Positions 3,422 to 56,358 of a DNA stretch of 64,000 bases are shown here, piece by piece; position 1 is the first letter of the stretch; each line of letters opens with the position of its first letter. The stretch is taken from positions 124,001 to 188,000 of IMG/VR virus record IMGVR_UViG_3300025133_000022. The stretch is one strand, 5' to 3'. Below the pieces are notes generated by a model. It was not told the origin of the DNA, searched no databases, and saw only the letters and a list, made by a program, of their open reading frames with translations. The position numbers were made by a program, and so were the translations under genes. This DNA comes from a virus.

Positions 3422-3426
3422 GTTTA

Positions 3427-3453
3427 AAAAGACCTCCTTTACGGAGGTCTTTT
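3427..3453. terminator. Bidirectional intrinsic terminator between convergent operons
   Basis: GACCTCC (3431-3437) pairs with GGAGGTC (3443-3449) around a 5-nt loop, flanked by AAAA before and TTTT after. Read on either strand it is a GC-rich hairpin followed by a U run. It sits exactly between the last plus-strand gene (ends 3421) and the last minus-strand gene (ends 3452), so it can stop both operons. Confidence 0.88.
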
Positions 3454-27681: not shown

Positions 27682-28106
27682 ATAAAACTCACTACGTCAA
27701 AGACACCAGTACCACTGCTATTTCGCAGCGGCTTAGTAGGCTCACCTAACAGCACAAGGCGTCCCTCTTCCGGTCGAAGTCCATTATACATGATTGTACC
27801 TCGAACACCTTCTAAAAGAACAGCATTTCCATGAGTCTTTAAAATCTCAGCTTCACTAGCCATAAAGGGGACATAGAATTTCCTTTTAGATCTTAAAGCT
27901 TGGACCTTAGCCACCATAGTGCCAGGCTCTCTTTTGACAAGATGTGCAATTTCTGCAGGAACTCCATCCTTATCAAGTGCATCTGCATCATAAACCTGCA
28001 GTACCACTACCTCAATAACAGTACGCCCAAGTGCTTGAGGGCGCTTGGATAGCAATCTGTTTTGTCGAATTCGCTCCTGTAAGGCATTCCCTGGAATAAC
28101 TGACAT
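27678..28106 (-). CDS. Small baseplate hub/spike protein, 142 aa
   Basis: A 142-aa, mostly beta protein. GTMVAKVQALRSKRKFYVPF and RGTIMYNGLRPEEGRLVLLG suggest an OB-fold-like barrel as found in the N-terminal domain of spike proteins (gp5, Mu gp45). The first 25 residues are basic and helical (LQERIRQNRLLSKRPQALGR). GGGAG precedes the ATG, which overlaps the stop of the giant hub gene. Gene order favours the hub/spike interface; no tip motif is visible. Confidence 0.45.
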   Translation of the reverse strand: MSVIPGNALQERIRQNRLLSKRPQALGRTVIEVVVLQVYDADALDKDGVPAEIAHLVKREPGTMVAKVQALRSKRKFYVPFMASEAEILKTHGNAVLLEGVRGTIMYNGLRPEEGRLVLLGEPTKPLRNSSGTGVFDVVSFI

Positions 28107-31100
28107 TAGCTCTCCCCTGTTAATTCAGCATAAAGCTGTTTGTTTTGATTCCAGACATCACTGTTTGCATCAAAAGTTCTTTTCAAATGTTCGTTTCTGC
28201 GCCAAGCGTGCTTGCCGTAGAGTCTCCAAATATCTGTAAGATCTCTAGTGCCGTCTAAAGTATCTTCAACCCAGCGACCAAGATCGCCCTTGAAGTTATT
28301 CCAAATCATACTAGGGTCAGTTAAATTCACACCACTAACAATTGGGTTCCCATTCTTCATAAGAGGGACAAGCATAATGGAGTCACCACGAAGAGCCTGC
28401 AAGAAGAGAATTGGACTGCCTAAAAGCCAAGTGAGTGATGGAGTAAGCCTGTTTCCAGCGAAAACAGCTCCACCGGCACCCAATATACCCATGACCCCCA
28501 TGGCTGTGCCACTTTGCATGCGCAAGAACTTAGGAACAGTTTTCCCAGCAGCTCCAAATACCCAAGGAATACCCTTGAGAGCAAGAGCACCTGTAGCAAC
28601 ACCGAGAGCGCCGCCAGTAAACTGGGTCAAGCCCCTTTTGACACTTCCAAGCTCATCCTCAATCTCCCGAATCTCTTCTAAATCACTTTTTCCAGTCTTC
28701 GGATTAGCAAATGGATCAAATGGTCGCAATTCAGCAGCTCTTTCTTCCAGATATTTGCGATATTCTGTAGCTGCATGTGGGGTTCCTAAATCTAAGGCTC
28801 CTTGCAAGCTACTTGAATCGTTTCCAGCACCAAATCCAAGAACCCAGTCCAAGAACCGAAAGCGTGCACCTGGATCTGTAGCACCAAGACCTTCATACTG
28901 ATCCTCAACATCTCTAACAGCCAGTGCAGCAACCTTGATGGCTTCTAGAACTGGCCACGAACTAGTTTCATTAGCTATTACCATTGCAGATGGTTTTATC
29001 TCACTGATAAAACCAGTCTCATGACTGAACTGATGTACAATCTGTTCGACTTCGAAAGGTCCTACCATGTCATTGTAACTATCAGACAAGATTCCAACAT
29101 CCCAAGGACGAATTCTTGGATTACCAAGAATTACAATCTCACCTCGATACATTTCTCGCATGGTGTGAAGCAAGGAACCAACACCATAACGCATAGCCAT
29201 TTGGTATCCTCGCACATTGTAGCTTGGCTGTAATGGAAGGACCCTTAAGTCATGCTCCGGTATGAAAGCATGTGCTTTAAACATGGCGCTAGACGCCGGC
29301 GAATCTCCAAACTTTGCGTTTTCTTCAAAGTAAGTGACATCAACAGCATTATGCACAGCATTTTCGCTACTCATTAAGCCATTCCAAACAATATCATGCT
29401 CACTAGTTACGCTATGGTAGCGTCTAAAAGGTTTGAAACGCAGGTTCAATGCTCTTAGATACTCCTTCATCGCTCTAGGTGTATATGTCAGCTGAGACAA
29501 GCTGCTTTTTATTTTGTCAACATCAACAGGATCTGTCTCGTAAACTGTTCCCGTTGTGATTTCAACGGGAACAGACTGCTGTGTGGCAGGATCATTTACA
29601 TAAACGGTATTTGTTACCATATCATTAGCGCTGTTGCGATCAACACTAGCAGCAACAATAGCCTCTTCATCTAGGTTCGCATCAAAATCTTCAAGAAGCA
29701 GACTTGTATAACCATCGTCAACAACATCACCATACAGTCTGCGATATTCATTCATGTCAACAGAGCTATTTCCAAGAACCTCATTTAAATCATTTGCTCT
29801 GCGAACAAACTCATTATCTCCTGGCTGACTCCAGTAGCGCTGACTTGGAACTCCAAAGAACATCGTATACCTAAACGCATGACCATAAGGTCTTGCAGCG
29901 TAAATCCAGCCTGGGTGCCGTAAGCTCATTTCATGAAAAACGTCCCAAATGGTTGTACTAATCAATCGAAAACTACAGGAAGCTGGCGCAACTCGCTTAT
30001 CCAGTGCAGGTTTGTTGCCAAACCAACGTGCAGCTTGGTAGCCAAGTTCGTCATCTGTGACAAATGCACTAACACCAGTTTTTACCACCCACATCTTCAT
30101 ATCTTCCCAGACTTTTGTCCAAGACTTATCATAAATTTCCATATAGTCTTTTGGGTGTGGGGGAAACAGATTGTCATCTTGAGGACTGAGAAATAGCGAA
30201 ACTTGCTTTTGTCGAAAATAAGCTTTAATCCTACCAACAGAGGCATCGTAAAGCTCACTAAATGCCCAATCAAGACCAGCAAGAGGCAGGGCTGAAATAG
30301 AAACGCCACCAACCAGCAAAGGCGCGCGATACCAAATACCACCCCAGACTCTAGAGATAGGTTTGATACCAACAGAACGCAACAATCCAACGCTTTGGCC
30401 AGCAATTTGTTGCATTGGGTGACTCATCCACTGACCTTTAAGTACTAAGTTCGCTATTTCAGCATCTGCTTTAGCAAGAGCACGAGCTGCATCGTCAATA
30501 GAACCTACTGCAGCTCTTCGAATCGCATTTGCCTGAATTCGCTGACTCTCTCTAACTAGCGCTCGACCGGCAGTGCCACCAGCATCACGCAAAGCCATTC
30601 CGCGTAAAGCCTGCTGGTTCTTAACAAGTCGACTAACAGCCCTAATGTCTGCTTGCACAACTTTGTTTGCAACAGTAGTAGCAACACCAATACGCTTGCC
30701 AACAATATTGGTAAGGGCACTGCGATAAAACGCAGTGCCAGGCCCATTGACCCCAAGCGTACCAAGCCACTTGGATACCCAGCTGAAATTTTTCACACCT
30801 CTGGTAGCAACAGCTCCAGTTCTTGCCAGACCTGCAGCAGGACGCAGAAGGCGACCAACACCTGGAATCCTACCAAGAACTGCAGCACCACCAATAGCAA
30901 GAGTCGCCGTGATGATCGGATTGTTTAACATCCAGTCAGTGACCCTGTTCGTCGCTTTGAATGCGCCTAAGAAACCTTTGCGACTGTAATCAACGAAATC
31001 CAATCGAGCATCCTGACCCTCACCAACTTGATACAGTTGGCCAAACTCCCATCGCCCAAAATGCTGAAGTTCTGGCTCCAACATCATGGCTCCTAGGAGC

Positions 31101-34100
31101 TGGTGAGTAGTCGCAAATGCACGACTGTCGTTAGCCGCACTGGTTCCCTTTATGGCTTGCTGCAATTCGGTACCAAAGCTTTGAACAAGAATTTCTGCTC
31201 TATCTCCACCCTGATTCCAAGTGACGTCTACGACACGGCCGTTAATCAAAACTTCTAGCAGATCAGGATCATTGCTATAGCCAACTCTTAGCTGTACATT
31301 TAGTCCTGGTCGAAGAACCAAAGCGCCAAAAGGTTGGTCAAGAGCACTTCCCTCATTGACAGAATCTCCACTAAGCTTACTAGCTTCCCCTGGAATATTA
31401 ATTTTGCTGGAATCTGAAAAATAGTCCAAATCTACAACAGCATCACGCTTGGTGCCATCCAGAGTGCCAGCTACGTTTAGTAAACTAACGACAGCATGAT
31501 CAGCAGGACTTTTTCTATTCTGCTCAACAGTAAAACTAGTTACGCCATTATAGCTGAAGAAATCATCAAAGTTGAGAAGCCGACTCTCAAACTCATCTTC
31601 TTCAACAAAGAAAAGCTTAAAGGTAGGATAAGCCCGAGACATTCTGCGCTTGCGACCGAAAATATCATTAGCACTATTCAAAGCCAGCTTGTTTAGCGAC
31701 TCTTTATTGAACCTATGAGAAGGGTCGGATTCTCGCTCAACAAGTGTACCCCTTAACCTGTCTGCTAAATTCTCAGGAATTTCTTTCTGGTCAAGATAGC
31801 CACTACGACTACCAAACATCTGATCTACAGATGCTACTGCATCCTGAAGCTCATTATATTGAGCCGCAGTAACACGACGCGGATACTGTACCCCGCCACC
31901 CTGACCAAAAGCACCTTCAAAATTACTTAAACGTACATCTTCTACATGGACACTGGACAGAGCTTTGGCTTCTTCTATTGAGATTGACAATTCTGGTTTG
32001 GTTGAATCCTTCTCAGTCCCCATGCGTGCTTCTTCAGCTTCACTCTGCAATGCATCAACAGCATTAGTGATATTGCCAATATGCTCTGAAATCGCTTCGG
32101 TACTTTCAGGATTGGGATAAAACGGAAACCCTGTTGCGCCTTTTTTTCCAGTGTCCGTAGCCTCAGCATTGTAATACTGAGGTAAACTAATGCGATCGTC
32201 CGTAGCTGGCTCCTGTACGTACCTGTCACCACTAGGCTCATAGGAACCACCGCTCTCAATCTTCTTCATGGAGTTGTAGCAATTGCTAACAATATCACCC
32301 ATAACATCTTGAATAGCAGTAATTACAGTTCTGTTGTGCGCATCTCCATCTTCATACATGTTCCACATATAAAAATCAGGAGGGCAAGCAGCAATATCTC
32401 CGTAATACGGATGATGCGGTAAGTCCATATCAGGTAATGCGGGAGAGCCCTGAATGCGCGCTCGCTTGTTCACACGACTGAGCCCCTGAAGGCCAAACGC
32501 CTTCAGGACGTCATAATCATTAAGCAAATCACAAGCGTAGCGTGCAAACAAGCTTTTGAAATATTCAATCTTTTTACTTTCTAAACTGGCTTCTGCGTGC
32601 CAAATAAATGGTCCTCCAGGAGGCCAAATGCCCTCCTGCTTATTAAAAAAGAACCAATCCCAAGACGCTCCATCTGGTAGTAAGATAGGAACAGCAATCT
32701 GCCCTTTGGGAATGTCAGATGGCTGAGCAATACCGATATCTTGGTTTTCCTTACTAGCCTCACGAATATTGTCGCTTGTAGTACCACGCTCAGTCATAAC
32801 GTACTTTGGCATATCGAAAAATCTATCAAACTGAAAATCACCACAACTTGCAGCTGTTTTCTTAAGCTGCTCAGTCGTACTTGCAAAGACTGGAGAGCCA
32901 CCCTCTCCAGCAACAGTACCAAGTATATCGCCAAAGATAGTGCTACTCACATAGGACTTGAAACGCTCTTCTACAAGATCTCTAACTGGCAATTGCCACA
33001 TATAATTGTTAGCAATATCAGTTAGAACGTCATCATGCATCTCAGCCCAAAAATCAGCGTAGATACCACGATCACTATCATTCCATTGGCCAAACTTAGT
33101 TTTTAACGCCTTGTCACCACCATTGACAACAGTTGCCCATATAAAACTTACAGGGCGCTCGACAATAGTGCCAAGAGCACCCCAGCCAACCAAACCACCA
33201 GCATAGCCTGCTCCAAAACCTGTCTGTAGTTTTTTCAAATCAACAGATGTCAAACCGTTCTGCGGATGCCACTGTAGCCAATTTTGATTTTCTACCAAGT
33301 GTTCTACAACAGCACCAGTCGCAAGCGACTCTTCTAGAGGTTTTGTTTGATTAGAAGAACTGGGTCCAGGATATGGATTAACAGCAGCAACAGTAGCTAA
33401 GTAGAGCTGATAGCCCTTGAAAAGATTTGGCTGCACAGGTAGCTCGTAGAGTTCGTCCTGCACAAAATCAATAGTATTCCCGCCTGCCTGCACTGTGCCA
33501 TAAGCAAGTTGGTCGTCAGACTCAGCAAGAATAGCACTAGCAGTCTGAATTGTCTTATGAATCATTGTCCAATAGTCAAGAATCTTCTCCATCGGAACTT
33601 TACCAAGAACTTGCGTATCTTGGCTTGCCTGAAGAAGAGCACTAATGTCAAATTCCTTAGGGGTAATGTTTTCATCCGGAACTGAAGAAGCTGTAGGGGC
33701 AGCTACAGGTCTGCCCTCCTTGGCCACTTGGGCGTAAGCTGCTCTCCAAGCATCGCCTTGATGCCCACCGGCACCACCGCTTTGCGGAACACCACCAAAC
33801 ACCTGGTCTAAGGGAACTGCGTTCAAATTAGAAAAGATAGAGGATTCTGGCAAAGATGTGCCAGCACCAACAATATTGCCAATACTGTCTGGGCCATTAG
33901 CCAAAGAACTGAAGTCATCGCCAAAAATAATCCAGTCATTATCACTCTTGTCTCTGTAAAGAGCCACATTATCATCTTCTACCAAGAGTGGCGATGTGAC
34001 GTACGACAATTCGAACTGACCAAATTCATCCGACTCTTGGCGATATGTGTTAGCACCAGCAAGCTGAGCAATGAGTACTTGCTGAAGTAACTCAGCTGCC

Positions 34101-37100
34101 TCATCTTTGAAAGCTAATTTGTAAACTGCATTTAAAACTTTAGAATATGCAACTTCTAAATCCTCTACTGCAGGAGCTGTACCATTAATAGCCTCACCAA
34201 CGTAAGGGTTAGTTTCAGACAGTTCAATAGTATGACAACTCATGCCAGGATGTCCTTGCACAGTCATACTGTTACTACGAGTAACCATAGCACGCCTAAG
34301 GACTTCGATATCTGCAATTACTGGCTCTTCACCAGCTTCCGTGACGTTGTTGTACGTAGCAATCTGAATGTCATCAGGAGAGAAAGTACCCAAGAGCCTA
34401 GTAACAAAACTATCCACAGCGACACACCAACTATCCGTAATGCCACGAAAGTTACGTGCATTCGCATGCAGCAACCCTCGCATCGCAAGCAGCACTTCAG
34501 TCTGCTTGCTGACACCTGCAAGTCTTTGTGTGCCACTACCCTCGAAATCCACAGAGCAAAATTCGAAACTGTAAAACGGCTCAATGCTACCCAAATGCTG
34601 TTGGGTAGGAAACTCATACCCAAGAATAGGAATATTTGCCACTATGTGACGAAGACCGCCAGCAACAGCAGTGAGAACAGTAGGGTCAGAATAAAAGCCT
34701 TTTTCAAGTTGTTCTTCGTTTCCAGGCCCAACTAAAAGCTTGTGGTGCTTCCACCACACATTAGTAATCTTGCTGTCACGATCATAATACAGCCAACCGT
34801 CTCTCCAAAGATTGTCTAAGATCTGACCAACAGACTGAAGCTCTTCGTTGCTGATATTGCCTTCTTTTGCTTCTTCTGCAATGTCTTCCTTGACAGTTGT
34901 TTGAGTAGGAGTTGTGAAAGAAGGGCTGGCAGTTAGTTCATAACTTCCAGCAACACTGGTCTCCAAAGGACCACTTAAGTCCACGGGGACCATGCGACTA
35001 GAACGTTTCCAATCCTCTTTTAAAGCTGGAGTACCAGTCCATGGCGGATCAATACCTACTCCAAGATCTTCACTTTCCCAATATTCAAAATGAAGATGAG
35101 TTTGGTAATGCCAAACACTACTTCTCTCTCCACTTGGATTGTCCCAGAAATTCTGATTAGAAGTTCTGGATATGTACTGATATCCATTAGAGCCAGAGGT
35201 CAGATATTCTTTTCTAGCTTCTACTATAGCATTGGCTTTAAATGCTTCATTCATAGGGCCACTACCACTCATCCAGCCAATGAGTGTTCCGGCAGGAATC
35301 TCCTCTGTGGCGTTAAGTGAATTCATTGCGGCTTCAGAAACACCACCAAGATGCATATACATACTCAGGTTGTTCCCATGAGACATTTGTATATAATTGC
35401 CCGCACTAGGAGCTTCGACATAATACCAAGCATTACGATACTTGATAGATTTAACAAACGAGCCAACGGGGAACGTTTCCCCAAATTCTCTAGTGACATT
35501 CGCTCCTCGAAAATTAACTTCTGGAACGATAGCCTTGATGCTGACTTCAAAATCTTCCTGATCGAAAGGCAACGAAGTAAGCTCTGTGTCATTCAAGTAC
35601 GCAAGTTTCCAACTCCCACCACTAGAAGAATCCGTCAATTGAATATGACTGACAGTACCTGCCTCAACAGCATAAATAGGCACTAAGACGTCTGGCTTAT
35701 TTCGATCACGATCACCTGCACCAATGTCAGTACCCCAGTGCATACTTCCACCAGTTGGGCGGCCTGCCAAACGAGATCGAGTAGCTGCAGAACGCCAATG
35801 GACAGTATCTGTAACGCGCACTTCATCAACAGGCATGGGTACATCTTCGTTAGAGTAGCCTACTGGTGACACACGAGGACTGCCATCTTTACCGAGAGCG
35901 CTACTGAAACGTCTACGTACTTTAACTCTGTCTACATGAAAAGTGTCAGTGGGATCAAAACGCAATTCCCAACCATCTACCTCAGTACCACCTGCGGACG
36001 GTAGCTTGTCCTTGGCAACACGTAACGTCTCTTTGTGCGCATCACTAATCATACCGGTCCACTCCGCTGGAAGCCTAACTTCCTTGTACGCAAAGAAGTG
36101 AAACAGTGCACCACCATGAACACTGTTCATCTTTGCAACAATGCCATTTCTAAGGAGCTTCCATTCGCGATACAACTCTTCAGTACTTGCTGGAGGTCCA
36201 GAATGCAAACCAAAGGTATGTCTGTCATTGCGATACAAAACGGCACTAAACAGCGCTCCCCAAAGAGTGCTGGTTAGAATCTCTTTCTCAACATCAATAG
36301 AGAAAGCTTTCATAAGGGCATCTCGTTGCAACAGGTTGATATACCTAGTATAGATGCGTGATTGCGCTGGACGTTGAACAAATTCTGATTGAGCCATTTT
36401 GTCAGGCAAGGGGAGAAGATCAAAAATCTCCCCTTGGTGAAACTCTTCCATCTGTTCAATAGTCAATTCTTGACGATCTTGATACTGACCTTGAACAGCA
36501 CTCCAAGAACGGATCTCATTATCAGAATTACCAAGCTTCGGCAGAATAGTGTGTTTTTGTTTTTTTTGACCAGCCTTCGCATCCCATCCAATAGTGGTTT
36601 CAATACCACTGCCTTTTGTATGCGAAGTCTCACCTGTAACTGGAAGCGTATGCCAATCTTTACGATAGAGCCAATTGTGAACATATGGAAAATAATTAAA
36701 CCAAGTAAGATCTAATTGCATAATCCATGTGTCGCTGCTGCCCTGCATGGGCGCAACATTCAAACCAGTCATAGTAAACGCCATGGCCTGGCTGTAGGGC
36801 CAGTGTGGCACAATCGTTTCTCTAAGGAAACGATTTTCAACATAACAGAAAGGACTGTGTCTAAATTCAACAACCAGTCTATGCATATCTAAAACCATAG
36901 GACCTGTGAAGGGAATGGTGATGCTTACAGCCACCTGCCCATGTCCGCTTGGAACTTTGGTTGTCGCGCGCTGACGCAGTGCTCTCCACTGCCAAACCAA
37001 ATCTTCAATCTGAATATCAATGTTCGTTGGCGGAACTACGAGGTCAATGTCATTGATAACAAAAACATTCTTACGGTATCCGTAAGTCGGCTCGAATTGG

Positions 37101-37120
37101 TCCATGGTCTTGGTTGGCAT
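28106..37120 (-). CDS. Giant baseplate hub protein with M23 peptidase and hydrophobic segments, 3004 aa
   Basis: The start is ATG 37120 (TGATG, GGGAGAG upstream). Residues 1-230 look like a beta domain of tail proteins. An M23 zinc endopeptidase lies at about 430-690: MHWGTDIGAGD (H about 461, Asp four residues on), SHGNNLSMYMHLGG (about 580-595) and HLHFEYW (about 675); M23 enzymes cut peptidoglycan cross-links. Hub-like domains (gp27/XkdQ type) occur near 1830-1990 (LRPGLNVQLRVGYSNDPDLL, LINGRVVDVTW) and 2400-2710 (ILGNPRIRPWDVGILSD). Hydrophobic stretches near 2065, 2270, 2845 and 2885 could enter a membrane. Most likely the central hub that opens the cell wall at injection. Confidence 0.82.
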   Translation of the reverse strand: MPTKTMDQFEPTYGYRKNVFVINDIDLVVPPTNIDIQIEDLVWQWRALRQRATTKVPSGHGQVAVSITIPFTGPMVLDMHRLVVEFRHSPFCYVENRFLRETIVPHWPYSQAMAFTMTGLNVAPMQGSSDTWIMQLDLTWFNYFPYVHNWLYRKDWHTLPVTGETSHTKGSGIETTIGWDAKAGQKKQKHTILPKLGNSDNEIRSWSAVQGQYQDRQELTIEQMEEFHQGEIFDLLPLPDKMAQSEFVQRPAQSRIYTRYINLLQRDALMKAFSIDVEKEILTSTLWGALFSAVLYRNDRHTFGLHSGPPASTEELYREWKLLRNGIVAKMNSVHGGALFHFFAYKEVRLPAEWTGMISDAHKETLRVAKDKLPSAGGTEVDGWELRFDPTDTFHVDRVKVRRRFSSALGKDGSPRVSPVGYSNEDVPMPVDEVRVTDTVHWRSAATRSRLAGRPTGGSMHWGTDIGAGDRDRNKPDVLVPIYAVEAGTVSHIQLTDSSSGGSWKLAYLNDTELTSLPFDQEDFEVSIKAIVPEVNFRGANVTREFGETFPVGSFVKSIKYRNAWYYVEAPSAGNYIQMSHGNNLSMYMHLGGVSEAAMNSLNATEEIPAGTLIGWMSGSGPMNEAFKANAIVEARKEYLTSGSNGYQYISRTSNQNFWDNPSGERSSVWHYQTHLHFEYWESEDLGVGIDPPWTGTPALKEDWKRSSRMVPVDLSGPLETSVAGSYELTASPSFTTPTQTTVKEDIAEEAKEGNISNEELQSVGQILDNLWRDGWLYYDRDSKITNVWWKHHKLLVGPGNEEQLEKGFYSDPTVLTAVAGGLRHIVANIPILGYEFPTQQHLGSIEPFYSFEFCSVDFEGSGTQRLAGVSKQTEVLLAMRGLLHANARNFRGITDSWCVAVDSFVTRLLGTFSPDDIQIATYNNVTEAGEEPVIADIEVLRRAMVTRSNSMTVQGHPGMSCHTIELSETNPYVGEAINGTAPAVEDLEVAYSKVLNAVYKLAFKDEAAELLQQVLIAQLAGANTYRQESDEFGQFELSYVTSPLLVEDDNVALYRDKSDNDWIIFGDDFSSLANGPDSIGNIVGAGTSLPESSIFSNLNAVPLDQVFGGVPQSGGAGGHQGDAWRAAYAQVAKEGRPVAAPTASSVPDENITPKEFDISALLQASQDTQVLGKVPMEKILDYWTMIHKTIQTASAILAESDDQLAYGTVQAGGNTIDFVQDELYELPVQPNLFKGYQLYLATVAAVNPYPGPSSSNQTKPLEESLATGAVVEHLVENQNWLQWHPQNGLTSVDLKKLQTGFGAGYAGGLVGWGALGTIVERPVSFIWATVVNGGDKALKTKFGQWNDSDRGIYADFWAEMHDDVLTDIANNYMWQLPVRDLVEERFKSYVSSTIFGDILGTVAGEGGSPVFASTTEQLKKTAASCGDFQFDRFFDMPKYVMTERGTTSDNIREASKENQDIGIAQPSDIPKGQIAVPILLPDGASWDWFFFNKQEGIWPPGGPFIWHAEASLESKKIEYFKSLFARYACDLLNDYDVLKAFGLQGLSRVNKRARIQGSPALPDMDLPHHPYYGDIAACPPDFYMWNMYEDGDAHNRTVITAIQDVMGDIVSNCYNSMKKIESGGSYEPSGDRYVQEPATDDRISLPQYYNAEATDTGKKGATGFPFYPNPESTEAISEHIGNITNAVDALQSEAEEARMGTEKDSTKPELSISIEEAKALSSVHVEDVRLSNFEGAFGQGGGVQYPRRVTAAQYNELQDAVASVDQMFGSRSGYLDQKEIPENLADRLRGTLVERESDPSHRFNKESLNKLALNSANDIFGRKRRMSRAYPTFKLFFVEEDEFESRLLNFDDFFSYNGVTSFTVEQNRKSPADHAVVSLLNVAGTLDGTKRDAVVDLDYFSDSSKINIPGEASKLSGDSVNEGSALDQPFGALVLRPGLNVQLRVGYSNDPDLLEVLINGRVVDVTWNQGGDRAEILVQSFGTELQQAIKGTSAANDSRAFATTHQLLGAMMLEPELQHFGRWEFGQLYQVGEGQDARLDFVDYSRKGFLGAFKATNRVTDWMLNNPIITATLAIGGAAVLGRIPGVGRLLRPAAGLARTGAVATRGVKNFSWVSKWLGTLGVNGPGTAFYRSALTNIVGKRIGVATTVANKVVQADIRAVSRLVKNQQALRGMALRDAGGTAGRALVRESQRIQANAIRRAAVGSIDDAARALAKADAEIANLVLKGQWMSHPMQQIAGQSVGLLRSVGIKPISRVWGGIWYRAPLLVGGVSISALPLAGLDWAFSELYDASVGRIKAYFRQKQVSLFLSPQDDNLFPPHPKDYMEIYDKSWTKVWEDMKMWVVKTGVSAFVTDDELGYQAARWFGNKPALDKRVAPASCSFRLISTTIWDVFHEMSLRHPGWIYAARPYGHAFRYTMFFGVPSQRYWSQPGDNEFVRRANDLNEVLGNSSVDMNEYRRLYGDVVDDGYTSLLLEDFDANLDEEAIVAASVDRNSANDMVTNTVYVNDPATQQSVPVEITTGTVYETDPVDVDKIKSSLSQLTYTPRAMKEYLRALNLRFKPFRRYHSVTSEHDIVWNGLMSSENAVHNAVDVTYFEENAKFGDSPASSAMFKAHAFIPEHDLRVLPLQPSYNVRGYQMAMRYGVGSLLHTMREMYRGEIVILGNPRIRPWDVGILSDSYNDMVGPFEVEQIVHQFSHETGFISEIKPSAMVIANETSSWPVLEAIKVAALAVRDVEDQYEGLGATDPGARFRFLDWVLGFGAGNDSSSLQGALDLGTPHAATEYRKYLEERAAELRPFDPFANPKTGKSDLEEIREIEDELGSVKRGLTQFTGGALGVATGALALKGIPWVFGAAGKTVPKFLRMQSGTAMGVMGILGAGGAVFAGNRLTPSLTWLLGSPILFLQALRGDSIMLVPLMKNGNPIVSGVNLTDPSMIWNNFKGDLGRWVEDTLDGTRDLTDIWRLYGKHAWRRNEHLKRTFDANSDVWNQNKQLYAELTGES
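29545..29574. repeat. Perfect 12-bp intragenic inverted repeat
   Basis: CTGTTCCCGTTG (29545-29556) and CAACGGGAACAG (29563-29574), 6-nt loop TGATTT, inside the giant hub gene, encoding the stretch around PVEITTGTVYE. No U run. Confidence 0.9.
36407..36436. repeat. Perfect 10-bp intragenic inverted repeat
   Basis: CAAGGGGAGA (36407-36416) and TCTCCCCTTG (36427-36436), 10-nt A-rich loop, near the 5' part of the giant hub gene. Confidence 0.85.
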
Positions 37121-40100
37121 CAATACTCTCCCATTAGTCGATCAGTATAAGATCTCGTGATTGGACGTCTAGTGTCATTAATTCTAACTGACCCAGCAGC
37201 ATTACCTCCAGTCATCGCCCCTACGTACTTCATAGCTCCGTTGAGCCCGAATCCGTTTGGCAACACACCTTTGATTTGATAACTGCTTGGGCGCGACATA
37301 TACGCACCACCACTATTGATTGGCCTGTCTATCATACCATAATCACTTGACGGCCTGCCAAGACTTTCTGGCGCTATGTGACCTCCACTGTTTTTAAATA
37401 AACTTCCTTGAGCAATAGCATTGCTAACTTGAGGAGAGGTGTACTCTCCGGGTGCTGAAAGAGGAGTGGCAGCATAGCCTGGCGTGCCAATCGCACCCAT
37501 TGCAAACATACTTGCAGCTGCACCCATTGCGATGGGCGCAGCCATCCTTTTGTCAAGCTTGTCTATGAGGTTGGTGATTTGCCCAAGCCCTTTAGAAAAA
37601 CCAGCCATACCATGTTGAGGAGAATCACTAAACGCAGCCATACCAGCAGTTTCCATATTGGAGCCTGCTAGAGCTTGGATAAACATATTGGGACCAGCAG
37701 AAAAAGCATGCGACATAGCCTTAGCAGTGCCAGGCATATTGGTTCCGGCAGCTACAGCAGAGTTGGCCACCTTCAGAGACGCATCTACAAAATTGTCAAT
37801 ATTGACGCTAAGCGTCCTACCCTTCGTAATTTCAGCAGCCCACTGGCCGGTCCTGCCCTCCCCTACAATATCACCAACTTTAAAGCTGGTGTTCTGGTTA
37901 TGAAAAATCTTATTCTTTAGAACATTGCGAAGCTCCTCAGCAGAATCTTGAGAAGGACTGGACATTAGCCGCTCAACGGCTCCACCCACCTCTTCGGCAA
38001 GAGGTACAAATACTTTCAGCTTCTTAGCCTTGAGAAGTACGTTCTCCTCAAGGGCACCAAGGATATCTCGATGCGCACGAATCTGATCAATATTGGCTCC
38101 ATAGTTGCCAAGAGCCTCGTGCAACCCACGAAGACGAACGTCCATCGCACCAGTTTGCTGCGAAATACCCATCTCCTTCATCATGTCTTGCACAATTTTA
38201 TCATCTAGGCCCCCACCAAGAGTATCTCCATAAGAAACCATACCCTTCTTGATAGCAGTACCCACACCGCCTTTAAGCACACGACTTTGAAGCTCCATAG
38301 CTAAACGCGCAGGATCCCCGACTTGTGCAGCAAGTCTCCTTCTCACTATTGCGCTAGTCTTGGGATCAAGCATCATGCTAAGTGCTGTATCACCATCCAT
38401 ATCCATGAATGCTTGAGGCGCAAGTCCAATGTCACCAGCTGCAGTAAGTACACGAGGCACAATCATGCGACCACCACCCTGCCCACCGGTAAATTGATCA
38501 ATATTGTCAATCAGAGTGCGAAAAAACTTGCGATTAGCATCATTGCCTTTGTCACCAGTAGCTGCTGCAATATCGGCGAAGCTTTTAATATCTTTGCGAA
38601 AGATACTTTTCATGAACTCTTCACCTCGCATCTGCTTAAACTGCTGATCGCCAGCAGCATCCAAACCACTAAAAACCTGGAGTTGCGCTCCTTTGATTTT
38701 ATTAAAAAAAGCATCAGTACCTTGAAGAGCACTAACTTCTCGTAGATCACGGAACACTTGGGACATAAAAACATTACCTGCAGAAATAAGAGGATGTCGT
38801 CCACTCACGCGAATAAGACCGCTGCCAAGCCTTTTGTTTCCTGCTTTATGTTCCATTCCTGTAAAGAACATGCGAGCACTCTCAGCCAATTGCTTACTGC
38901 TAGTGCCACCAGCTTTCTGACCATGAAGTTCGCTTAGCATCATGGTCGCGTCAGCAAATACAGCAGTGCCACCAGTACTTCTAAAAAGTTGGTTAGCTAC
39001 ACGACCCTGCTGGCGGCTAGTAAAGCCAGCGCCAGTAGTAAGGTTATAAGAACTAACTCTAGGAGAACTACTGCCCCGAACCTTGCCACGAGCAAGGTTC
39101 GCAATACTGGTACTCATAAGATCCAAAGCATTACTGCGCCAAGTCTTGAGACTTTCACGCAGAGGGTCACCACCTGTAGTAGCATGATCGGCCAAACGCT
39201 TTTGCAAACCACTCACAAGCTGACCATACGCAGCACTGACCTCTTTGCTTTGCCCTCCAGCAATTCGCACACTAGTCCCACTGCCAGCCTCATAGGCTTC
39301 CATGCCTGGCATATACATACTGCTAGATCCAAAAACATCCTGAACGGCTCTGCCAATGTGCGCAGGAGCGTCACTAAAATCTAAAATGGCTCCTTGCTTC
39401 TGAGTACGCAACCAATCTGTCATCTGTCCAGTTGACCTGCCACCCTCAGTGAAAGCGTCACCAAACTGACTGTACTTGAGGCGCGTAGCACCTCTTTCGG
39501 TGAAAGCGTCTACAGCATTACGATGCCCAGTGACACTGCGCCCCATACCCATCATTTGCTCAGCGAGAGCATAGTGACGACCAAAGCCAATTTTATTAGT
39601 ATAGATGCCAGCAACTGCGTCAACAGACTGCTCTTTGCTCATACCTAGCTGAAGCATGCGTTCGTATGCTGTCTGAGCGAATCTGCGTTCAAGACCAACA
39701 CGCGCAGCACCCCAGTCTCCGGCGGATGGGCCAACTTGAACCGTGTCAATAAAACTAACAAGTCCGCGTCTCATCGCCGCAAGAGCATCAGCGCTTCCAG
39801 CACCAAGTCCACGAACCATCTTCTGAAGTTTCGCCTGGTCAATTCCGCCTTTACCAACACCTCCGCCCTCTGCCCCATGGTATACGCCAGCAAGCATCAT
39901 TCCAATATTCTTAGCACCAACACCACGCTGCTGCATTAATTCAAATGCAGCTTGAGCGTAAATCTGATGTCCCTGCTTGCCTAGCATACCTCCACCAGCA
40001 TCTGAAAGAGCCTGCGCTCGAGCACGCAATGTTTTGTGGTTTACGCCAAACATTTTTGCGGTTCCCGCTATTTGGTGTGTAAAACCAAAAGTACCTTTGC

Positions 40101-42243
40101 TAAACATGTCACTACTAATGTACGCAGCACCATACTTCATGTCTCCCAATCCAGAAAGTTCTGAAGCAAGCTCACCCAGCCTTTTGTCTTGTCTGTACAG
40201 ACGGTCAATACCTGCTTGCCCGATATTCTCCATGTTGCCTTTAAAGCTAGCGCTAAACATTTTAAGAAAATCCATCTTTCTAATCTGTTGGCCACGAAAA
40301 TAAATCATGTCTTTCTTGTAACTGATGCCAGTACGATCTAAAGCAATATCAAGAGCTTCAGTAGCTGGATCCCGAGGTAAGTACTTTCTGCCGGAACCAG
40401 TCTCTCCAACATACAAATTCTGAGCCAATTCTTCTGGAGTGAATTTACCATTGCCTGCAAGAATGCGTGTCAATGTTTCACTAGCCGCATAAGCGTGTTT
40501 CTCTGGATTGAGAACAGAGAATTGAATAGGCTTACTTACTCTGTGAGACACTCCAGTGACCCCCATGCCAGAATCACCATAAGACTTACTTAAATGACCA
40601 GCATTAGAAAAATCAACAACCATCATCTTGTTTAAACCACCAGACGCATGAGAACCCCAACCCTGAGACACTTCACTAATGGCACGGTGTCGAAGCACTC
40701 CCGGACTGAGTTTACTCTCTCCAGGGCGAGTAAACTTATTTCGAAGACGATCTAAAGAAACATCAGAAGCCTGCCCAACACCACCTAGGTAAGCACCCCC
40801 AAACGTACGAAGAGAATCAAGAGAGTAGCTACTTCGACCAAGGACTTGCGCTTCACGCGCAGTGATAGGAAGCTGGTGTCTGTCGACAGCAAACTTGCCA
40901 TACGCACTCTGAAGAGCGCTAAAGCCACTTTTCGCTCTAAGGCCTAGTACAGATCTACGCTCCTGCCCAAAGCCAGTAACAAGGCGCTTAGCGCCTACAG
41001 CACCACCCTCAAAATCACCTCCAGAACCAAGCTGAGCAATAAAACGCATCGCCTCACCAGAGTCCATTGCTCCAAAAGTATGCCCAAACACTGCATTCGC
41101 ACCAAGTGCTATTTGTCGACGTATATGTCTTCCGATATACCCAGAAGTCATAGCTGCACGATCAACGTGTTGAGTAGCCATGCCCATATTTTCCCTAAAC
41201 GCCTTCCAGTCAACGCGTCCTTTCGCTGCACGAGAACCAATGTCTTGAATAAGATAATCAGAAAAACTAGTCAATGCTCCGCCAGCCCTAAGCTGTCCAA
41301 CCGTCATGTTTGCAGCATCAAGTCCTTGTTGCCTAACAAGCTGGTGTGCGTTTTGAACATTCATGGCATGTTTTGGAGTCGAGTAAAGAGTGTTGAAACT
41401 CTGACCACTGCGAAACAATCCATGCTCGTGTAAGGGTACGCTAGCTACCCATTGTCCACGATTCAAAATTTGTGCTTGCCTAAACTGCCTGCCGCCTTCA
41501 GTAAAAGAGGCAACACGCATTTTGTAATCACCTTGAGACAGGTGGGCATTCAGACGCAAAGCCCTTCGTTCCCAAGGTTTGAGAGCTTCTTTAGCTTGCC
41601 TCCTGCTAAGTAAGGTTCCAACATCAATAGAATTGTAAGCAACACCGCCTTTTGGGATTGAAAAATTAGGAGACTGAAGCTGACCGCTGATGTTTCTAAA
41701 TTCACTTAAATTCTCTTCCCATTTTAAAAGAGTCTCGGCAGAACCACTATCAAGAAGAGATCTAGTAACTTTCTCGGCAAACTCTTCTACAGAGTTTGGA
41801 CTAGCCTCACTAAGCAAACGGCTAATCTCTCCTTTCAGAGAGCTAACGGCAGAAGCATTAAGACCACTAGCAGGATCTTCAAGTGTTACGGAAAGTGTCT
41901 GAAGAAGTGCATTGTGTTGCTCTACGGTGCCAATGATTTTGCGTAACTCATCAGAATCACCAAGCCCTCTTTTAATTTTATCAACAACTTTGGCTGCACG
42001 CTCACTTCTGGCTTGTTGAGACTTTCGAGCTGCAAGGCCTTTGGCCTTGCCAATAGCCTGAGAAGGCGTAGCTTTAGAAAGAGGGTTGTTTAACGCCTCG
42101 TTTCTTTTAAGGTGTCTTTGCCCATGCCAAATACCAACAGCTACAGGGCTTAACCCTACGGCAGTCTTAAGTAGCGAAACACCACTTTGAACAGTGGTGT
42201 CAGCATCTTCGTGAAACTGGTTAAAGCGATCATTAGTAGCCAC
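37120..42243 (-). CDS. Giant virion protein with RNA-polymerase-like DxDGD motif (or tape measure), 1707 aa
   Basis: GTG start with GGAGAG about 9 nt upstream; it overlaps the preceding gene by 11 nt. Position between the chaperone-like genes and the hub is that of a tape measure protein. However, residues 1281-1285 read DMDGD (38389-38403), within APQAFMDMDGDTALSMML, and GRHPLIS (R about 1149) lies upstream; two-barrel RNA polymerases have RxP followed by D-x-D-G-D, the latter holding catalytic magnesium. YGDSGMGVTG (D about 557) might belong to a first barrel, but its paired lysines are not evident. A hydrophobic segment lies near 1567-1585. The C-terminus resembles that of the next giant protein. 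Virion location likely; polymerase function is a hypothesis. Confidence 0.5.
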   Translation of the reverse strand: MATNDRFNQFHEDADTTVQSGVSLLKTAVGLSPVAVGIWHGQRHLKRNEALNNPLSKATPSQAIGKAKGLAARKSQQARSERAAKVVDKIKRGLGDSDELRKIIGTVEQHNALLQTLSVTLEDPASGLNASAVSSLKGEISRLLSEASPNSVEEFAEKVTRSLLDSGSAETLLKWEENLSEFRNISGQLQSPNFSIPKGGVAYNSIDVGTLLSRRQAKEALKPWERRALRLNAHLSQGDYKMRVASFTEGGRQFRQAQILNRGQWVASVPLHEHGLFRSGQSFNTLYSTPKHAMNVQNAHQLVRQQGLDAANMTVGQLRAGGALTSFSDYLIQDIGSRAAKGRVDWKAFRENMGMATQHVDRAAMTSGYIGRHIRRQIALGANAVFGHTFGAMDSGEAMRFIAQLGSGGDFEGGAVGAKRLVTGFGQERRSVLGLRAKSGFSALQSAYGKFAVDRHQLPITAREAQVLGRSSYSLDSLRTFGGAYLGGVGQASDVSLDRLRNKFTRPGESKLSPGVLRHRAISEVSQGWGSHASGGLNKMMVVDFSNAGHLSKSYGDSGMGVTGVSHRVSKPIQFSVLNPEKHAYAASETLTRILAGNGKFTPEELAQNLYVGETGSGRKYLPRDPATEALDIALDRTGISYKKDMIYFRGQQIRKMDFLKMFSASFKGNMENIGQAGIDRLYRQDKRLGELASELSGLGDMKYGAAYISSDMFSKGTFGFTHQIAGTAKMFGVNHKTLRARAQALSDAGGGMLGKQGHQIYAQAAFELMQQRGVGAKNIGMMLAGVYHGAEGGGVGKGGIDQAKLQKMVRGLGAGSADALAAMRRGLVSFIDTVQVGPSAGDWGAARVGLERRFAQTAYERMLQLGMSKEQSVDAVAGIYTNKIGFGRHYALAEQMMGMGRSVTGHRNAVDAFTERGATRLKYSQFGDAFTEGGRSTGQMTDWLRTQKQGAILDFSDAPAHIGRAVQDVFGSSSMYMPGMEAYEAGSGTSVRIAGGQSKEVSAAYGQLVSGLQKRLADHATTGGDPLRESLKTWRSNALDLMSTSIANLARGKVRGSSSPRVSSYNLTTGAGFTSRQQGRVANQLFRSTGGTAVFADATMMLSELHGQKAGGTSSKQLAESARMFFTGMEHKAGNKRLGSGLIRVSGRHPLISAGNVFMSQVFRDLREVSALQGTDAFFNKIKGAQLQVFSGLDAAGDQQFKQMRGEEFMKSIFRKDIKSFADIAAATGDKGNDANRKFFRTLIDNIDQFTGGQGGGRMIVPRVLTAAGDIGLAPQAFMDMDGDTALSMMLDPKTSAIVRRRLAAQVGDPARLAMELQSRVLKGGVGTAIKKGMVSYGDTLGGGLDDKIVQDMMKEMGISQQTGAMDVRLRGLHEALGNYGANIDQIRAHRDILGALEENVLLKAKKLKVFVPLAEEVGGAVERLMSSPSQDSAEELRNVLKNKIFHNQNTSFKVGDIVGEGRTGQWAAEITKGRTLSVNIDNFVDASLKVANSAVAAGTNMPGTAKAMSHAFSAGPNMFIQALAGSNMETAGMAAFSDSPQHGMAGFSKGLGQITNLIDKLDKRMAAPIAMGAAASMFAMGAIGTPGYAATPLSAPGEYTSPQVSNAIAQGSLFKNSGGHIAPESLGRPSSDYGMIDRPINSGGAYMSRPSSYQIKGVLPNGFGLNGAMKYVGAMTGGNAAGSVRINDTRRPITRSYTDRLMGEY
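39077..39101. repeat. Perfect 10-bp intragenic inverted repeat
   Basis: CGAACCTTGC (39077-39086) and GCAAGGTTCG (39092-39101), 5-nt loop CACGA, within the 1707-aa gene. Confidence 0.85.
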
Positions 42244-45200
42244 TTAAGTATCTCTCCATTGCTGTGCCAATATCAATGGCACGGTTATCATTGTAATCAA
42301 CTTGTACAGTACTCATCATACCTTTCCATGGTGCTACATGCCAACTGCCACGACTTCCTGCAGTGCCAGTCATTTGAGTAAGTCCTCTACTCATAGCAGA
42401 ACCTATCGGAACCCCAGGTTTGTTTTGTTGTAAGAAATCTGTACTCCCGTCTAGCATAGGTTGTTGCATGCTTTTCTTGAGCTGTTTTTCCCATAAGCCG
42501 TAATCCGACAGCTCTGCACCCATCCTGTCGACATATCTAACCTGAATATCACTCATGTCGACATCCTCATGCCAACCCACCCAATCTTCGGAAGGCATTG
42601 GCCCTTCTAGAGATCCAGCAACACGTGCTTCTTGAGCAGCTAAATGCGAATCGCTAATAGCGTTATCAGCACCAGCCCAAAGATTCTCATCTCCAGAATC
42701 CATTCGGCTCCAAATTGCCTTGTAAAGGTGTTGTTGGTCGGCGGGAACCATCTCCATAATACGATGACGATCTTTACCAGAAGCATGAGCGAAAGCATTG
42801 AAGAATTTTCTTTCACTATCAGGAAGTGTCCAGTACATACTTAGAGAGCTCCCTTGAGGATTCACACCAGCACGAGTATTGGCTTGAGCCCAGCGGTACT
42901 GTGCTGCTGCACGAGAATCTCCAGAAAGTTCTGCCTGTTCGCGCAACCTTGCCCATTTTAGAAATTCTAATTTATCAAAGTACTCGTTTGCACTATCAGC
43001 CTTGTGTCTCCACAGAGGCTTACCTTCCCATCCCATCATATTTAAAGTGCTGTTCATGGCTGGTCGAAACCAATCGCGCCATGGCTTATCCCAAAAAGCC
43101 ATAGGTGTACCATATAGACGCTCGTACTCATACTGCTCAATAGCATCTCTGTCACTCATGAGTTTTTGCACGGGACGAAAGCCCATAGGTACGAGATATT
43201 CTCCTGGTGCTGTTACCCGACGTGCTGCTCGCTGTCCCGCAGCCCAAGCAGCTCGGGTTAATCCCGAGCCTGGTAGCCTGATAGCATTCTTGTGTAGTCT
43301 GTCATCACTAAATCCACTAACTTGCTCTGAGTGATTGCGATCCACTGCCTCCATGAAAGCAATTTGCTTCTCATTGTAAGCTCCCTCCATGCGCTGCTTG
43401 TACACAGCTTGCTTGTAAAGAGTGTATTCCTGAGAAAGTGGCGCTACGTCACTAAGGATGGCAAATCTAAATAAGGCGGGGTAAGCCTCTGGATCTACCC
43501 CTCGTAGTTCAGGGTGTAAGCCTGCATAGCCTGCACCTGGCAAGCGTCCTTCTCCCCATTCTATTGAGCGATATGGGTCTCCCCATTTGAACTTGTCTGG
43601 CAGCCAGCTAGGCATATTGTTGGCAAGCGGATTGCGACGATCTATCTCGCTACGCATTCTAGGAAAGACGCGACGCAAAAATTCATTTGAAAACAATGCA
43701 CCACCCATGTTCATCTCCCAGAAACGAACACGGCTGCTAGTCATCAAACTAGCATCTGCCAGCTGTTGGCTGTCAGCCGCCCAAACATCATCTCCAGTTA
43801 AGCCCTGCTGGATAACATTCTTAGCCCAGCCAGTCATACCTTCCAGCTCTCTGAATTGGTAAGACAAAAAACTCAATTGATTGGTAGCACTGTAAGGACT
43901 TGTCGGCACACCGTGATGAGCTCCCAAAGCTGTGGCTGGCTCAAAGCGCGACCCTTTGTACACATTTCCATACTCAAGCCCACCATCTTGTCCAGGACGA
44001 ATCCATTCGCCTGCATGCATAACTCTTGCAGGCTTGATTAGCCTGCCAATAGTACTTGAGAGCACACCGCCAATTATTGGCACGTCTGAAAACGCAGCAT
44101 TACTTATGGGATAAGGTCTATCCCAATACTGCTGTGTTTCTAATTCATAAGTAAAGTTTTGACGAATCCACTTGCCTAGGGGACTTATCTTGTCCTCATC
44201 TGCACCCCAAACACCTTTCTCGCGCACTCTGTTCATCATGAGAGAATACTGATGTGGTCTGTAATAGTCTGTTTCACCACCCTCGAATGGAGTGCCACCT
44301 GCTTCCCACCACCTACTTGATTTAACGGCAACCATTTTTCTGCCAGAATAGATGTCACGCAGATCGTCTGCAGTTTCCTTACTGCCTAACAGGCCACCAG
44401 TGAGAAGCTGATGTGTGCCAAAAATAGCAGCTCCGACACTTGCCCACTTGCCCAGCCGGCCTGCTGAACTGAATCCCATATCGCCAATTCGACGACGCAA
44501 AGCTTTGTCTGCACCGACATCTGCACCAAAGAAACTATAGTAGGCTTGAGTACCAAAACCTTTGGCTTCCTTCTTAAGGCGAGCAACCAGGTTGGGGGTG
44601 TCTCCATACTTGGCGCTAATGTCGCGCAACCTACGCTCTAGCGCTTCGTTCATAGGGTTGCCTTGCCTGTAGGTGTCCAGCTGCTCTTCAGCCCTGTAGA
44701 ATGCAGTATTGAGGTCTTGCATCATCTCTAAACGCTTGTTGTCATACACACTGGTGCGCAAGTGTTTCATCAAATCGCGTCGTTGCCGAAACCCTTCATG
44801 AGGTAGGTTGTTAGCCAAACCGCTAACATTTTTATAATAGAGATCTCGCACATTGCTGTTTGCCAATTGTACCTGACGGACTTTGTCTGCCTGTAAATCT
44901 AATTTCAAGCGCCTAGGTCCAGCAGACTCAAGCATCGTCTGGGCTAGACTCATATTGCGACCAGGCAAACTAACACTGGTGGCCATAATGCCACCAGTTG
45001 CTAACAGCGCACCAGTTTCCCAATCGGTACTTCCAGGAGCGAAACCCTCAAGGGTCCGACGCAAATAATTGAAAGGGTTCAGTGCATTGGCACGAGCGAC
45101 ATCCATGCTGACAGCACCGGTTGCAACCCCTTGCATAACGCCTTGATCAAACCCAGGAAGAATCATTTGGCCAAAGAAACTTGCAGCTGCAGCAAACATA

Positions 45201-46333
45201 GCCGTGCGCGGCTGCTTGGCCATCTTGCCAACAGCATACCCGACACCGGCGCTTACCGCCCCACTAGCAAGAATTTGCCCAGGCATTCCATATTGTCTTC
45301 GTACCCAATCTGCTTGGCTTGCCGCAAGTACAGTACTTCCAGCAAGTGCAGCCCTGCCTCCAAAACGCATAAACATTGAGGAAGCTGGACCTGGACGAAC
45401 GCCAGGAGATACACCCAAAATACTTTTGAATGCCTTTCCACCAGACTCACCAAGGAACTGATCTGCCACACCTGAGACAAGACGATTAAATCTACCCATT
45501 TCAAATGCAGCCACACCTCGAATCATCGTAGTACGTCGAGCCAAATCACTTAAGTCTTTAAGGTCTCCAACCGAACTAGGAACTGGCATGAAGCTAGCTT
45601 GTTTTCTAACCCACTTTCCAGCAGCATCTTGCTTTGAGCCGAGAAGTACTTCTTTTTCATTGAAAGCATCATCAGCATACATATCTGCAGCAGCAAACAT
45701 GCCAGTAGCAATTCTATTGACACCGCGCTCTTTAGTGAGTGGGTTGACAACTTCATGACTCATAGCCTGCAAAGATATGCTGTCACTTAATAATTTTCTA
45801 TTGCCTCCAAGCCAATGCCCAGTACTTTCGTCTAGTCTTCCACCTAGCACGCTGTACAAGTTCCCACTGGAGCCACGTGGCTCAAACACCATGGCGTCAG
45901 CCAAGTGCTGAGAAGCTCCAAGCATGCCTTCAGTGATTCCAGCTGCTGTCATGCCGGCACGATCAAGCCCAGTGGCGTACTTAAGCCAATTGTAAGTACT
46001 ACTAGACTCAAGAGCTTCACGTCCCCAGACAGTAACGCCTTCCGTGCTGCCAGAACCAACCTTATACCCCATGGATGTAAATGGACTTAAGATCTCAGGA
46101 ACACGAAAAGTATTTAAAATTTGGAACGGGCTCAGATTCCCGCTAAGCCGAGAACGAGCCGCAATGTAGTCAATTGGACGCCGGCCATTCGACATAGGCT
46201 TAGTAGCTGCATACATAGCACCCGCACCAGCTGCAACCGCAACCGCAAGCTTTGTCATCTGACTGCCAGCACTATTGTAAGGTTCTGTGGAGTCACCATT
46301 CCAGGTGACCCCACCATAAGACTTAAGGGCCAT
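42233..46333 (-). CDS. Giant tail protein, candidate tape measure component, 1366 aa
   Basis: TAATG couples the ATG to the upstream gene. An N-terminal hydrophobic helix (MTKLAVAVAAGAGAMYAA, about 26-43) and a hydrophobic block near 350-400 (AAAASFFGQMILPG) suggest membrane contact after ejection. The middle (about 480-640) is helical and charged. A conspicuous motif near 915-940, MPSWLP then GDPYRSI and RLPGAGY, looks conserved in style, but I cannot place it. The protein ends AMERYLSGY, similar to DRLMGEY at the end of the 1707-aa protein. It is the first large gene after the chaperone-like pair, so a tape measure or ejected protein is the best guess. Confidence 0.55.
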   Translation of the reverse strand: MALKSYGGVTWNGDSTEPYNSAGSQMTKLAVAVAAGAGAMYAATKPMSNGRRPIDYIAARSRLSGNLSPFQILNTFRVPEILSPFTSMGYKVGSGSTEGVTVWGREALESSSTYNWLKYATGLDRAGMTAAGITEGMLGASQHLADAMVFEPRGSSGNLYSVLGGRLDESTGHWLGGNRKLLSDSISLQAMSHEVVNPLTKERGVNRIATGMFAAADMYADDAFNEKEVLLGSKQDAAGKWVRKQASFMPVPSSVGDLKDLSDLARRTTMIRGVAAFEMGRFNRLVSGVADQFLGESGGKAFKSILGVSPGVRPGPASSMFMRFGGRAALAGSTVLAASQADWVRRQYGMPGQILASGAVSAGVGYAVGKMAKQPRTAMFAAAASFFGQMILPGFDQGVMQGVATGAVSMDVARANALNPFNYLRRTLEGFAPGSTDWETGALLATGGIMATSVSLPGRNMSLAQTMLESAGPRRLKLDLQADKVRQVQLANSNVRDLYYKNVSGLANNLPHEGFRQRRDLMKHLRTSVYDNKRLEMMQDLNTAFYRAEEQLDTYRQGNPMNEALERRLRDISAKYGDTPNLVARLKKEAKGFGTQAYYSFFGADVGADKALRRRIGDMGFSSAGRLGKWASVGAAIFGTHQLLTGGLLGSKETADDLRDIYSGRKMVAVKSSRWWEAGGTPFEGGETDYYRPHQYSLMMNRVREKGVWGADEDKISPLGKWIRQNFTYELETQQYWDRPYPISNAAFSDVPIIGGVLSSTIGRLIKPARVMHAGEWIRPGQDGGLEYGNVYKGSRFEPATALGAHHGVPTSPYSATNQLSFLSYQFRELEGMTGWAKNVIQQGLTGDDVWAADSQQLADASLMTSSRVRFWEMNMGGALFSNEFLRRVFPRMRSEIDRRNPLANNMPSWLPDKFKWGDPYRSIEWGEGRLPGAGYAGLHPELRGVDPEAYPALFRFAILSDVAPLSQEYTLYKQAVYKQRMEGAYNEKQIAFMEAVDRNHSEQVSGFSDDRLHKNAIRLPGSGLTRAAWAAGQRAARRVTAPGEYLVPMGFRPVQKLMSDRDAIEQYEYERLYGTPMAFWDKPWRDWFRPAMNSTLNMMGWEGKPLWRHKADSANEYFDKLEFLKWARLREQAELSGDSRAAAQYRWAQANTRAGVNPQGSSLSMYWTLPDSERKFFNAFAHASGKDRHRIMEMVPADQQHLYKAIWSRMDSGDENLWAGADNAISDSHLAAQEARVAGSLEGPMPSEDWVGWHEDVDMSDIQVRYVDRMGAELSDYGLWEKQLKKSMQQPMLDGSTDFLQQNKPGVPIGSAMSRGLTQMTGTAGSRGSWHVAPWKGMMSTVQVDYNDNRAIDIGTAMERYLSGY

Positions 46334-56031: not shown

Positions 56032-56034
56032 GTA

Positions 56035-56256
56035 TCACTCTCCAGACAGTATTAGTGCAGTTTCTGCTTTTAGCTTCTCTAGCTGCATGACATTTGGATC
56101 ACGGCTAGCTGCAAGATCTATATATCCTAAAGAAACAGCAACCTGCTCCTCTCCTTCTTCGTCTTTTGCATTTGCCCACTCTGCTGAAGGTGGCATAGGC
56201 GCAACGGTTCTGCCCACCATATCCCAATCTTCAACAACATCCTTAAACCAACTCAT
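56035..56256 (-). CDS. Small acidic protein downstream of capsid gene, 73 aa
   Basis: AAAGGAG lies before the ATG. The 73-aa product is acidic (VVEDWDMVGRTVAPMPPSAE, NAKDEEGEEQVAVSLGYIDL) with a C-terminal helix. No membrane segment or motif. It follows the hairpin after the major capsid gene and could be a small capsid or neck accessory. Function unknown. Confidence 0.6.
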   Translation of the reverse strand: MSWFKDVVEDWDMVGRTVAPMPPSAEWANAKDEEGEEQVAVSLGYIDLAASRDPNVMQLEKLKAETALILSGE

Positions 56257-56300
56257 AGAAAATCTCCTTTGAGTCTATTGTACACGACTATACGAACGAA

Positions 56301-56326
56301 GGGGAGTCCTCATAAGAGGACTCCCC
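56301..56326 (-). terminator. Strong hairpin downstream of the major capsid gene
   Basis: GGGGAGTCCTC (56301-56311) and GAGGACTCCCC (56316-56326) form a perfect 11-bp stem with a 4-nt loop in the 102-nt gap after the capsid gene. No U run follows (minus strand reads CCUUCGUUCG), so it may protect or process the 3' end of the capsid message, or act as a partial terminator. The remainder of the gap shows only an SD for the next gene and a weak TACAAT sequence. Confidence 0.65.
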
Positions 56327-56358
56327 AAATTTAGTCGTTTAGAACTCTAAGCAGTCGC

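Follow-up and report, generated by a model that had tools for sequence, protein, structure and literature searches.

Analysis of a 64,000-nucleotide stretch of viral DNA (the window; positions 124001-188000 of the 192,537-base IMG/VR record IMGVR_UViG_3300025133_000022) revealed a candidate RNA polymerase gene in its tail gene cluster. The gene occupies positions 37120..42243 (-), has a GTG start and encodes a protein of 1707 amino acids, referred to here as W1707. Its sequence places W1707 in a family characterized by an invariant DxDxD motif, a preceding RxP element and a conserved pair of lysines further upstream. We consider it likely that W1707 acts as a single-chain enzyme of the two-barrel (double-psi beta-barrel) class of RNA polymerases, and that it would be carried in the virion and transcribe the earliest phage genes. 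Together with its DNA the phage would thus probably bring in a transcription enzyme of its own. A virion-borne polymerase at a tail locus had been proposed in a first-pass annotation of this DNA, and conservation in the family, profile comparison and the structural model of a homologue all support the polymerase part of that proposal.

The DMDGD sequence at residues 1281-1285 (38389..38403 (-)) is the candidate magnesium-binding aspartate triad of the second barrel. GRHPLIS, at residues 1148-1154 (38782..38802 (-)), contains the RxP element of the same barrel (RHP, residues 1149-1151). Both positions are as originally annotated, GRHPLIS having been placed near residue 1149. DxDGD occurs once in W1707. 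Taken alone it is only suggestive, because 2.1% of composition-preserving shuffles of W1707 contain it; the motif gains its significance from conservation of the triad in divergent homologues. The corresponding codon pattern, GAY-NNN-GAY-GGN-GAY, has only three matches across the 192.5-kb genome. The other match within the window, at 11468-11482 (-), falls in a 991-amino-acid open reading frame (10838..13813) of the baseplate region.

IMG/VR was scanned with the conserved half of giant1, the structural protein encoded next to W1707, and 79 loci were obtained. In most of these the gene after giant1 again encodes a giant protein (giant2, the position held by W1707), and many giant2 proteins carry DxDGD or another DxDxD, usually at about residue 1000-1350. 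L008, which comes from the same metagenome as W1707, shows 26% identity over most of the length of W1707 and carries RYP and DFDSD. Further scans enlarged the core family to 21 members. When W1707 alone was compared by hhalign with a profile of seven core members, a probability of 96.7% was obtained (E-value 4.2e-10), and the RHP and DxDxD stretches were aligned. W1707 together with L008 matched the 21-member profile with a probability of 99.6% (E 6.5e-25) over nearly the whole length of W1707. Downstream of the active site, EENVLLKAKKL at residues 1399-1409 (38017..38049 (-)) was aligned by hhalign with the family motif EQxPISxKH. The core profile was also matched by a group comprising L021, L022, L029 and L033, by L019, and by gp034 of Bacillus phage KLEB27-3 taken with L085; the match of the L035 group and Acinetobacter phage ME3 was weaker and covered a shorter stretch, which included the motif region. 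KLEB27-3 gp034 gave in addition a sub-threshold match to the Pfam domain RNA_pol_Rpb1_2 (beta-prime domain 2) over RxP and DxDGD (E 0.0044; 17.7 bits, below the curated cut-off of 25.3), a domain for which W1707 had no match.

Conservation was counted in an alignment of 28 sequences, W1707 included. Only five positions of W1707 are invariant (28/28), namely P124, P270, D1281, D1283 and D1285. The first-pass annotation had asked whether all three aspartates together with the Arg and Pro are invariant; this holds for the aspartates, while R1149 (25/28) and P1151 (27/28) are near-invariant only. The fourth motif position is variable and may be Gly, Ala, Phe, Leu, Ser, Lys or Asp. Loss of the Gly appears tolerable, because gp66, the polymerase of the crAss-like phage phi14:2, carries DFDID; its earlier listing among D-x-D-G-D enzymes was thus mistaken.

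The distance of 132 residues between Arg and Asp in W1707 had been raised as an objection, being longer than in beta-prime. It is the longest in the alignment, followed by 114 in L008. The distance is 36 in L021, L022, L029 and L033 and 40-92 in most others; in ME3, L041, L050, KLEB27-3 and L085 the Arg lies 36-45 residues from the start of the matched motif. In gp96 and gp64 of Thermus phage P23-45 the RxP-to-DxDGD spacing is 38 in both. The spacing in W1707 is therefore read from these comparisons as the result of a lineage-specific insertion (approximately residues 1165-1265, 38449..38751 (-)) at a variable site, the elements on either side being otherwise normal, which answers the objection. 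A second objection, that the paired lysines of the first barrel are unclear, is partly met by K661-x-F-x4-K668 (40240..40263 (-)). K661 is kept in 27/28 sequences and K668 in 25/28, and these are probably the paired lysines; in the L012 model described below, their equivalents fall within a part rich in beta structure.

An AlphaFold model was built for residues 306-1295 of the homologue L012 using 21 sequences, with a predicted local distance difference test score (pLDDT) of 79.7 and a predicted template modelling score of 0.79. In this model RxP ends a strand and DxDxD lies between two strands within a beta-rich region, with long helices following; about 280 mostly helical residues separate the inferred barrels. 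In a Foldseek search of the PDB, every one of the 50 matches listed was a chain of a bacterial RNA polymerase, with a best E-value of 6e-5 and probabilities of 0.91-1.00. Going by chain letter and length, most of these look like beta-prime. Among viral models in BFVD the second match was the ME3 entry A0A172Q021; it is split into pieces of 801 and 802 residues, which together give the 1603 amino acids of the ME3 orthologue, ME3_36. The named matches ranked below it are for the most part RNA polymerases of viruses or subunits of such enzymes. Overall, the modelling supports an RNA polymerase-like fold for L012, as a local resemblance to large subunits, but not for W1707 through its own model. 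The outcomes originally named as contradicting a polymerase were an all-helical fold, lack of a double-psi barrel around residue 1281 and loss of the aspartates: the L012 model is beta-rich near the motif and polymerase-like, and all 28 sequences keep the aspartates, but there are related groups without the motif.

These groups, and several other results, weigh against a polymerase. The giant2-position genes of a freshwater group of about 40 contigs with a related giant1 (L038-L084) and of Moorella phage MTATph1 have no DxDxD motif, and profile comparison of their products with the polymerase part of the family found no similarity. As far as sequence comparison can tell, the polymerase trait is thus patchy rather than universal among related phages; the L038-L084 group may have lost the domain or may never have had one. 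The template modelling scores of the L012 matches in the PDB are low (0.12-0.15), only part of the fold being matched. The model of W1707 itself is poor (pLDDT 55.7), and a Foldseek search with it gave no match at E<=0.001; RNA polymerase chains are frequent among its weak matches, the top ones being ABC transporters. Pfam and PHROG searches gave no match for W1707, and searches of Pfam, PHROG and PDB sequences with W1707 or the family profile yielded nothing usable, including any sequence-level match to solved RNA polymerases. No similarity to gp96, gp66 or gp64 was found when family profiles were compared with them by hhalign (probability for gp96 <=0.4%). The known enzymes mostly fail to detect each other by the same method, for example gp96 and gp66.

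The surroundings of the gene bear on whether its product is packaged. Portal protein and giant1 match those of ME3, MTATph1 and KLEB27-3 in tblastn searches, and the annotation of ME3 repeatedly cites Bacillus phage 0305phi8-36. The portal protein is encoded at 61129..62892 (-) (MTATph1 2e-51, ME3 3e-46, KLEB27-3 6e-46). A 795-amino-acid protein upstream in the tail cluster (50054..52441 (-)) is a tail sheath candidate from its position relative to ME3_29 alone. Giant1 itself (1366 amino acids; 42233..46333 (-)) is related to ME3_35, MTATph1_CDS0026 and KLEB27-3 gp031/gp033 (tblastn E 4e-46, 9e-16 and 2e-11; also blastp). After giant2 comes a baseplate hub-like protein of 3005 amino acids (28106..37123 (-)), which matches phrog_20474 (endolysin; E 5e-47) and has the position of ME3_37, the baseplate hub. 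The gene order in ME3 is sheath, structural proteins, chaperone, giant1, giant2 and baseplate hub, and W1707 occupies the giant2 position. Portal, giant1 and gene order are thus all common to the phage carrying W1707 and the ME3/0305phi8-36-type tail cluster, and the tail-operon position of giant2 is conserved across diverse phages.

In 0305phi8-36 the position directly ahead of the hub gene belongs to orf146, whose assignment as tape measure rested mainly on tail length (PMC2147016). Contrary to that assignment, giant1 may be likelier than W1707 to be the tape measure, because few residues are left to measure a tail if about 1,000 of the 1707 form a polymerase. The earlier placement of W1707 at a tape-measure locus stands as regards the tail locus, but W1707 is more aptly described as the neighbour of a tape-measure candidate.

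A second polymerase candidate, of 1090 amino acids, is encoded outside the window at genome positions 11957-15226 (+) (locus L115). It contains R500-F-P, followed 46 residues later by D546-D-D-G-D, a typical spacing. An identical copy is present in a 74,973-base IMG/VR contig that also holds W1707, and the searches made, including tblastn against INPHARED, found no relatives beyond that copy. The same tblastn search of the INPHARED phage collection with W1707, L008 and L012 gave no match either. A PF05183 profile search of the genome found no match. By analogy with P23-45, the genome appears to carry both a virion and a non-virion polymerase candidate.

Gene position and precedent suggest the following course of events. 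The tail operon would make W1707 late, and the protein would be packaged in the tail tube or head, enter the cell either together with the DNA or before it, and transcribe early phage genes. These may include the gene of the second candidate, which would take over as gp64 follows gp96 in P23-45. A C-terminal hydrophobic segment (residues 1567-1585; 37489..37545 (-)), with counterparts in L008, L012 and ME3_36, would fit a role in membrane passage. A k-mer search of intergenic regions for shared early promoters returned mainly repeats resembling parts of tRNAs.

Position alone does not prove packaging, and W1707 could be a two-barrel RNA polymerase whose gene merely lies within the tail operon and which transcribes late genes after its synthesis. 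We regard this as unlikely: the gene stands between those of a structural protein and the baseplate hub in an order conserved in diverse phages, KLEB27-3 gp034 is annotated as a structural protein, a separate polymerase candidate is encoded in another genome region, and the hydrophobic segment speaks for a virion protein. It is more doubtful still that the polymerase fold is catalytically dead and has been repurposed as a structural tail component such as a tape measure or ejection channel. Such a role would account for the loss of the motif Gly in many relatives, for the missing RxP of L102 and the L035 group and for the absence of the domain from some related phages, but hardly for the three aspartates being among only five invariant positions in 28 sequences; the Gly is missing as well from gp66, which is annotated as the catalytic subunit of the phi14:2 RNA polymerase. 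A different two-barrel activity, that of a PolD-like DNA polymerase, a primer-making enzyme or an RNA-templated polymerase, is very improbable. The superfamily does include PolD and the RNA interference (RNAi) polymerases (PMC7824862), and one BFVD match of L012 is named RNA dependent RNA polymerase; PolD, however, is absent from the 50 PDB matches listed, and the precedent at a tape-measure locus is DNA-templated RNA synthesis (PMC10770324). Finally, a chance DxDGD in a helical tape-measure protein of the ordinary kind, for instance as a loop that binds calcium, would agree with its presence in 2% of shuffled copies but is scarcely credible and was rejected on the conservation pattern, given the invariant triad with its neighbouring motifs across 28 homologues and the beta-rich L012 prediction with its RNA polymerase matches.

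Accepting W1707 as a candidate virion polymerase, the closest parallel is gp96, the virion RNA polymerase of P23-45, which transcribes the pre-early genes, including the gene for gp64 (PMC10770324). Both have a single-chain two-barrel signature at a tape-measure locus, and in both cases a second polymerase is encoded elsewhere in the genome (here a candidate, in P23-45 the non-virion gp64). However, gp96 is fused to a 5,002-amino-acid tape measure in a phage whose tail is very long and non-contractile, whereas W1707 has its own gene beside a separate giant1 in a contractile-tail cluster; the connector of gp96 is short and disordered, in contrast to the helical stretch of about 280 residues in the L012 model. 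The gp66 protein of phi14:2 is likewise a giant single-chain virion RNA polymerase with a DxDxD motif lacking Gly, but it belongs to another phage group and gene neighbourhood. Phage N4 also has a virion RNA polymerase that is a giant protein delivered with the DNA. The N4 enzyme differs in being a palm-fold polymerase related to that of T7, of an unrelated family (PMC7824862). The first-pass annotation considered the arrangement unfamiliar from myoviruses. Contractile-tailed jumbo myoviruses of the phiKZ/AR9 type do package a two-barrel polymerase (PMC7824862), but theirs is multisubunit, with split beta and beta-prime chains, and is not a single tail-operon protein. Phage 0305phi8-36 shares the tail-cluster lineage, going by the ME3 annotation, and has orf146 at the giant2 position; orf146, compared here by its description only, was assigned as tape measure and no polymerase was reported (PMC2147016). 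Its orf99 encodes a polymerase of the RNAi type, so 0305phi8-36 may have the same polymerase pair.

In a 2021 survey of jumbo phages, polymerases were listed only in group 1 phages, in 0305phi8-36 (YonO-like) and in c-st (PMC7824862). No description of polymerases at the giant2 locus of the ME3/0305phi8-36 lineage was found in the literature, a search that did not extend to supplementary tables, and priority is uncertain. A polymerase at a tape-measure locus is known from gp96, while the separate W1707 family in contractile-tailed phages is apparently undescribed. On balance we favour the view that this lineage has a deeply diverged and hitherto overlooked family of single-chain RNA polymerases that are carried in the virion, have their genes between those of the tape-measure candidate and the hub, are delivered with the DNA and are paired here with a non-virion polymerase. 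If so, single-chain cellular-type RNA polymerases carried with tail proteins would not be peculiar to Thermus phages, and would be widespread in large contractile-tailed phages, including the cultured ME3 and KLEB27-3. Large proteins annotated as hypothetical or structural would gain a function, the question of how such phages start transcription would have a testable answer, and the evolution of two-barrel polymerases would acquire a diverse new branch.

A few further features were observed. KLEB27-3 gp034 (L005 22100-29404) and MTATph1_CDS0027 (L004 23285-27214) share an RNase_T-like exonuclease domain, which in gp034 precedes the polymerase motifs on the same chain. Locus L115 also encodes, at 2661-5609 (-) and on the same strand as the structural genes, a 983-amino-acid protein whose N-terminus is exonuclease-like (phrog_192, E 0.0036) and which also contains a staphylococcal nuclease domain (PF00565, E 1e-16). 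Elsewhere in the genome, elongation-factor-Tu-like and Ro60/TROVE-like proteins were recognized by eye at 31366-32565 (+) and 55441-57021 (+). Beside the tail genes, a small cluster at 3661-7123 (-) of the window appears by eye to encode a HAD phosphatase, a sulfotransferase and a methyltransferase, together with two proteins of glycosyltransferase family 9.
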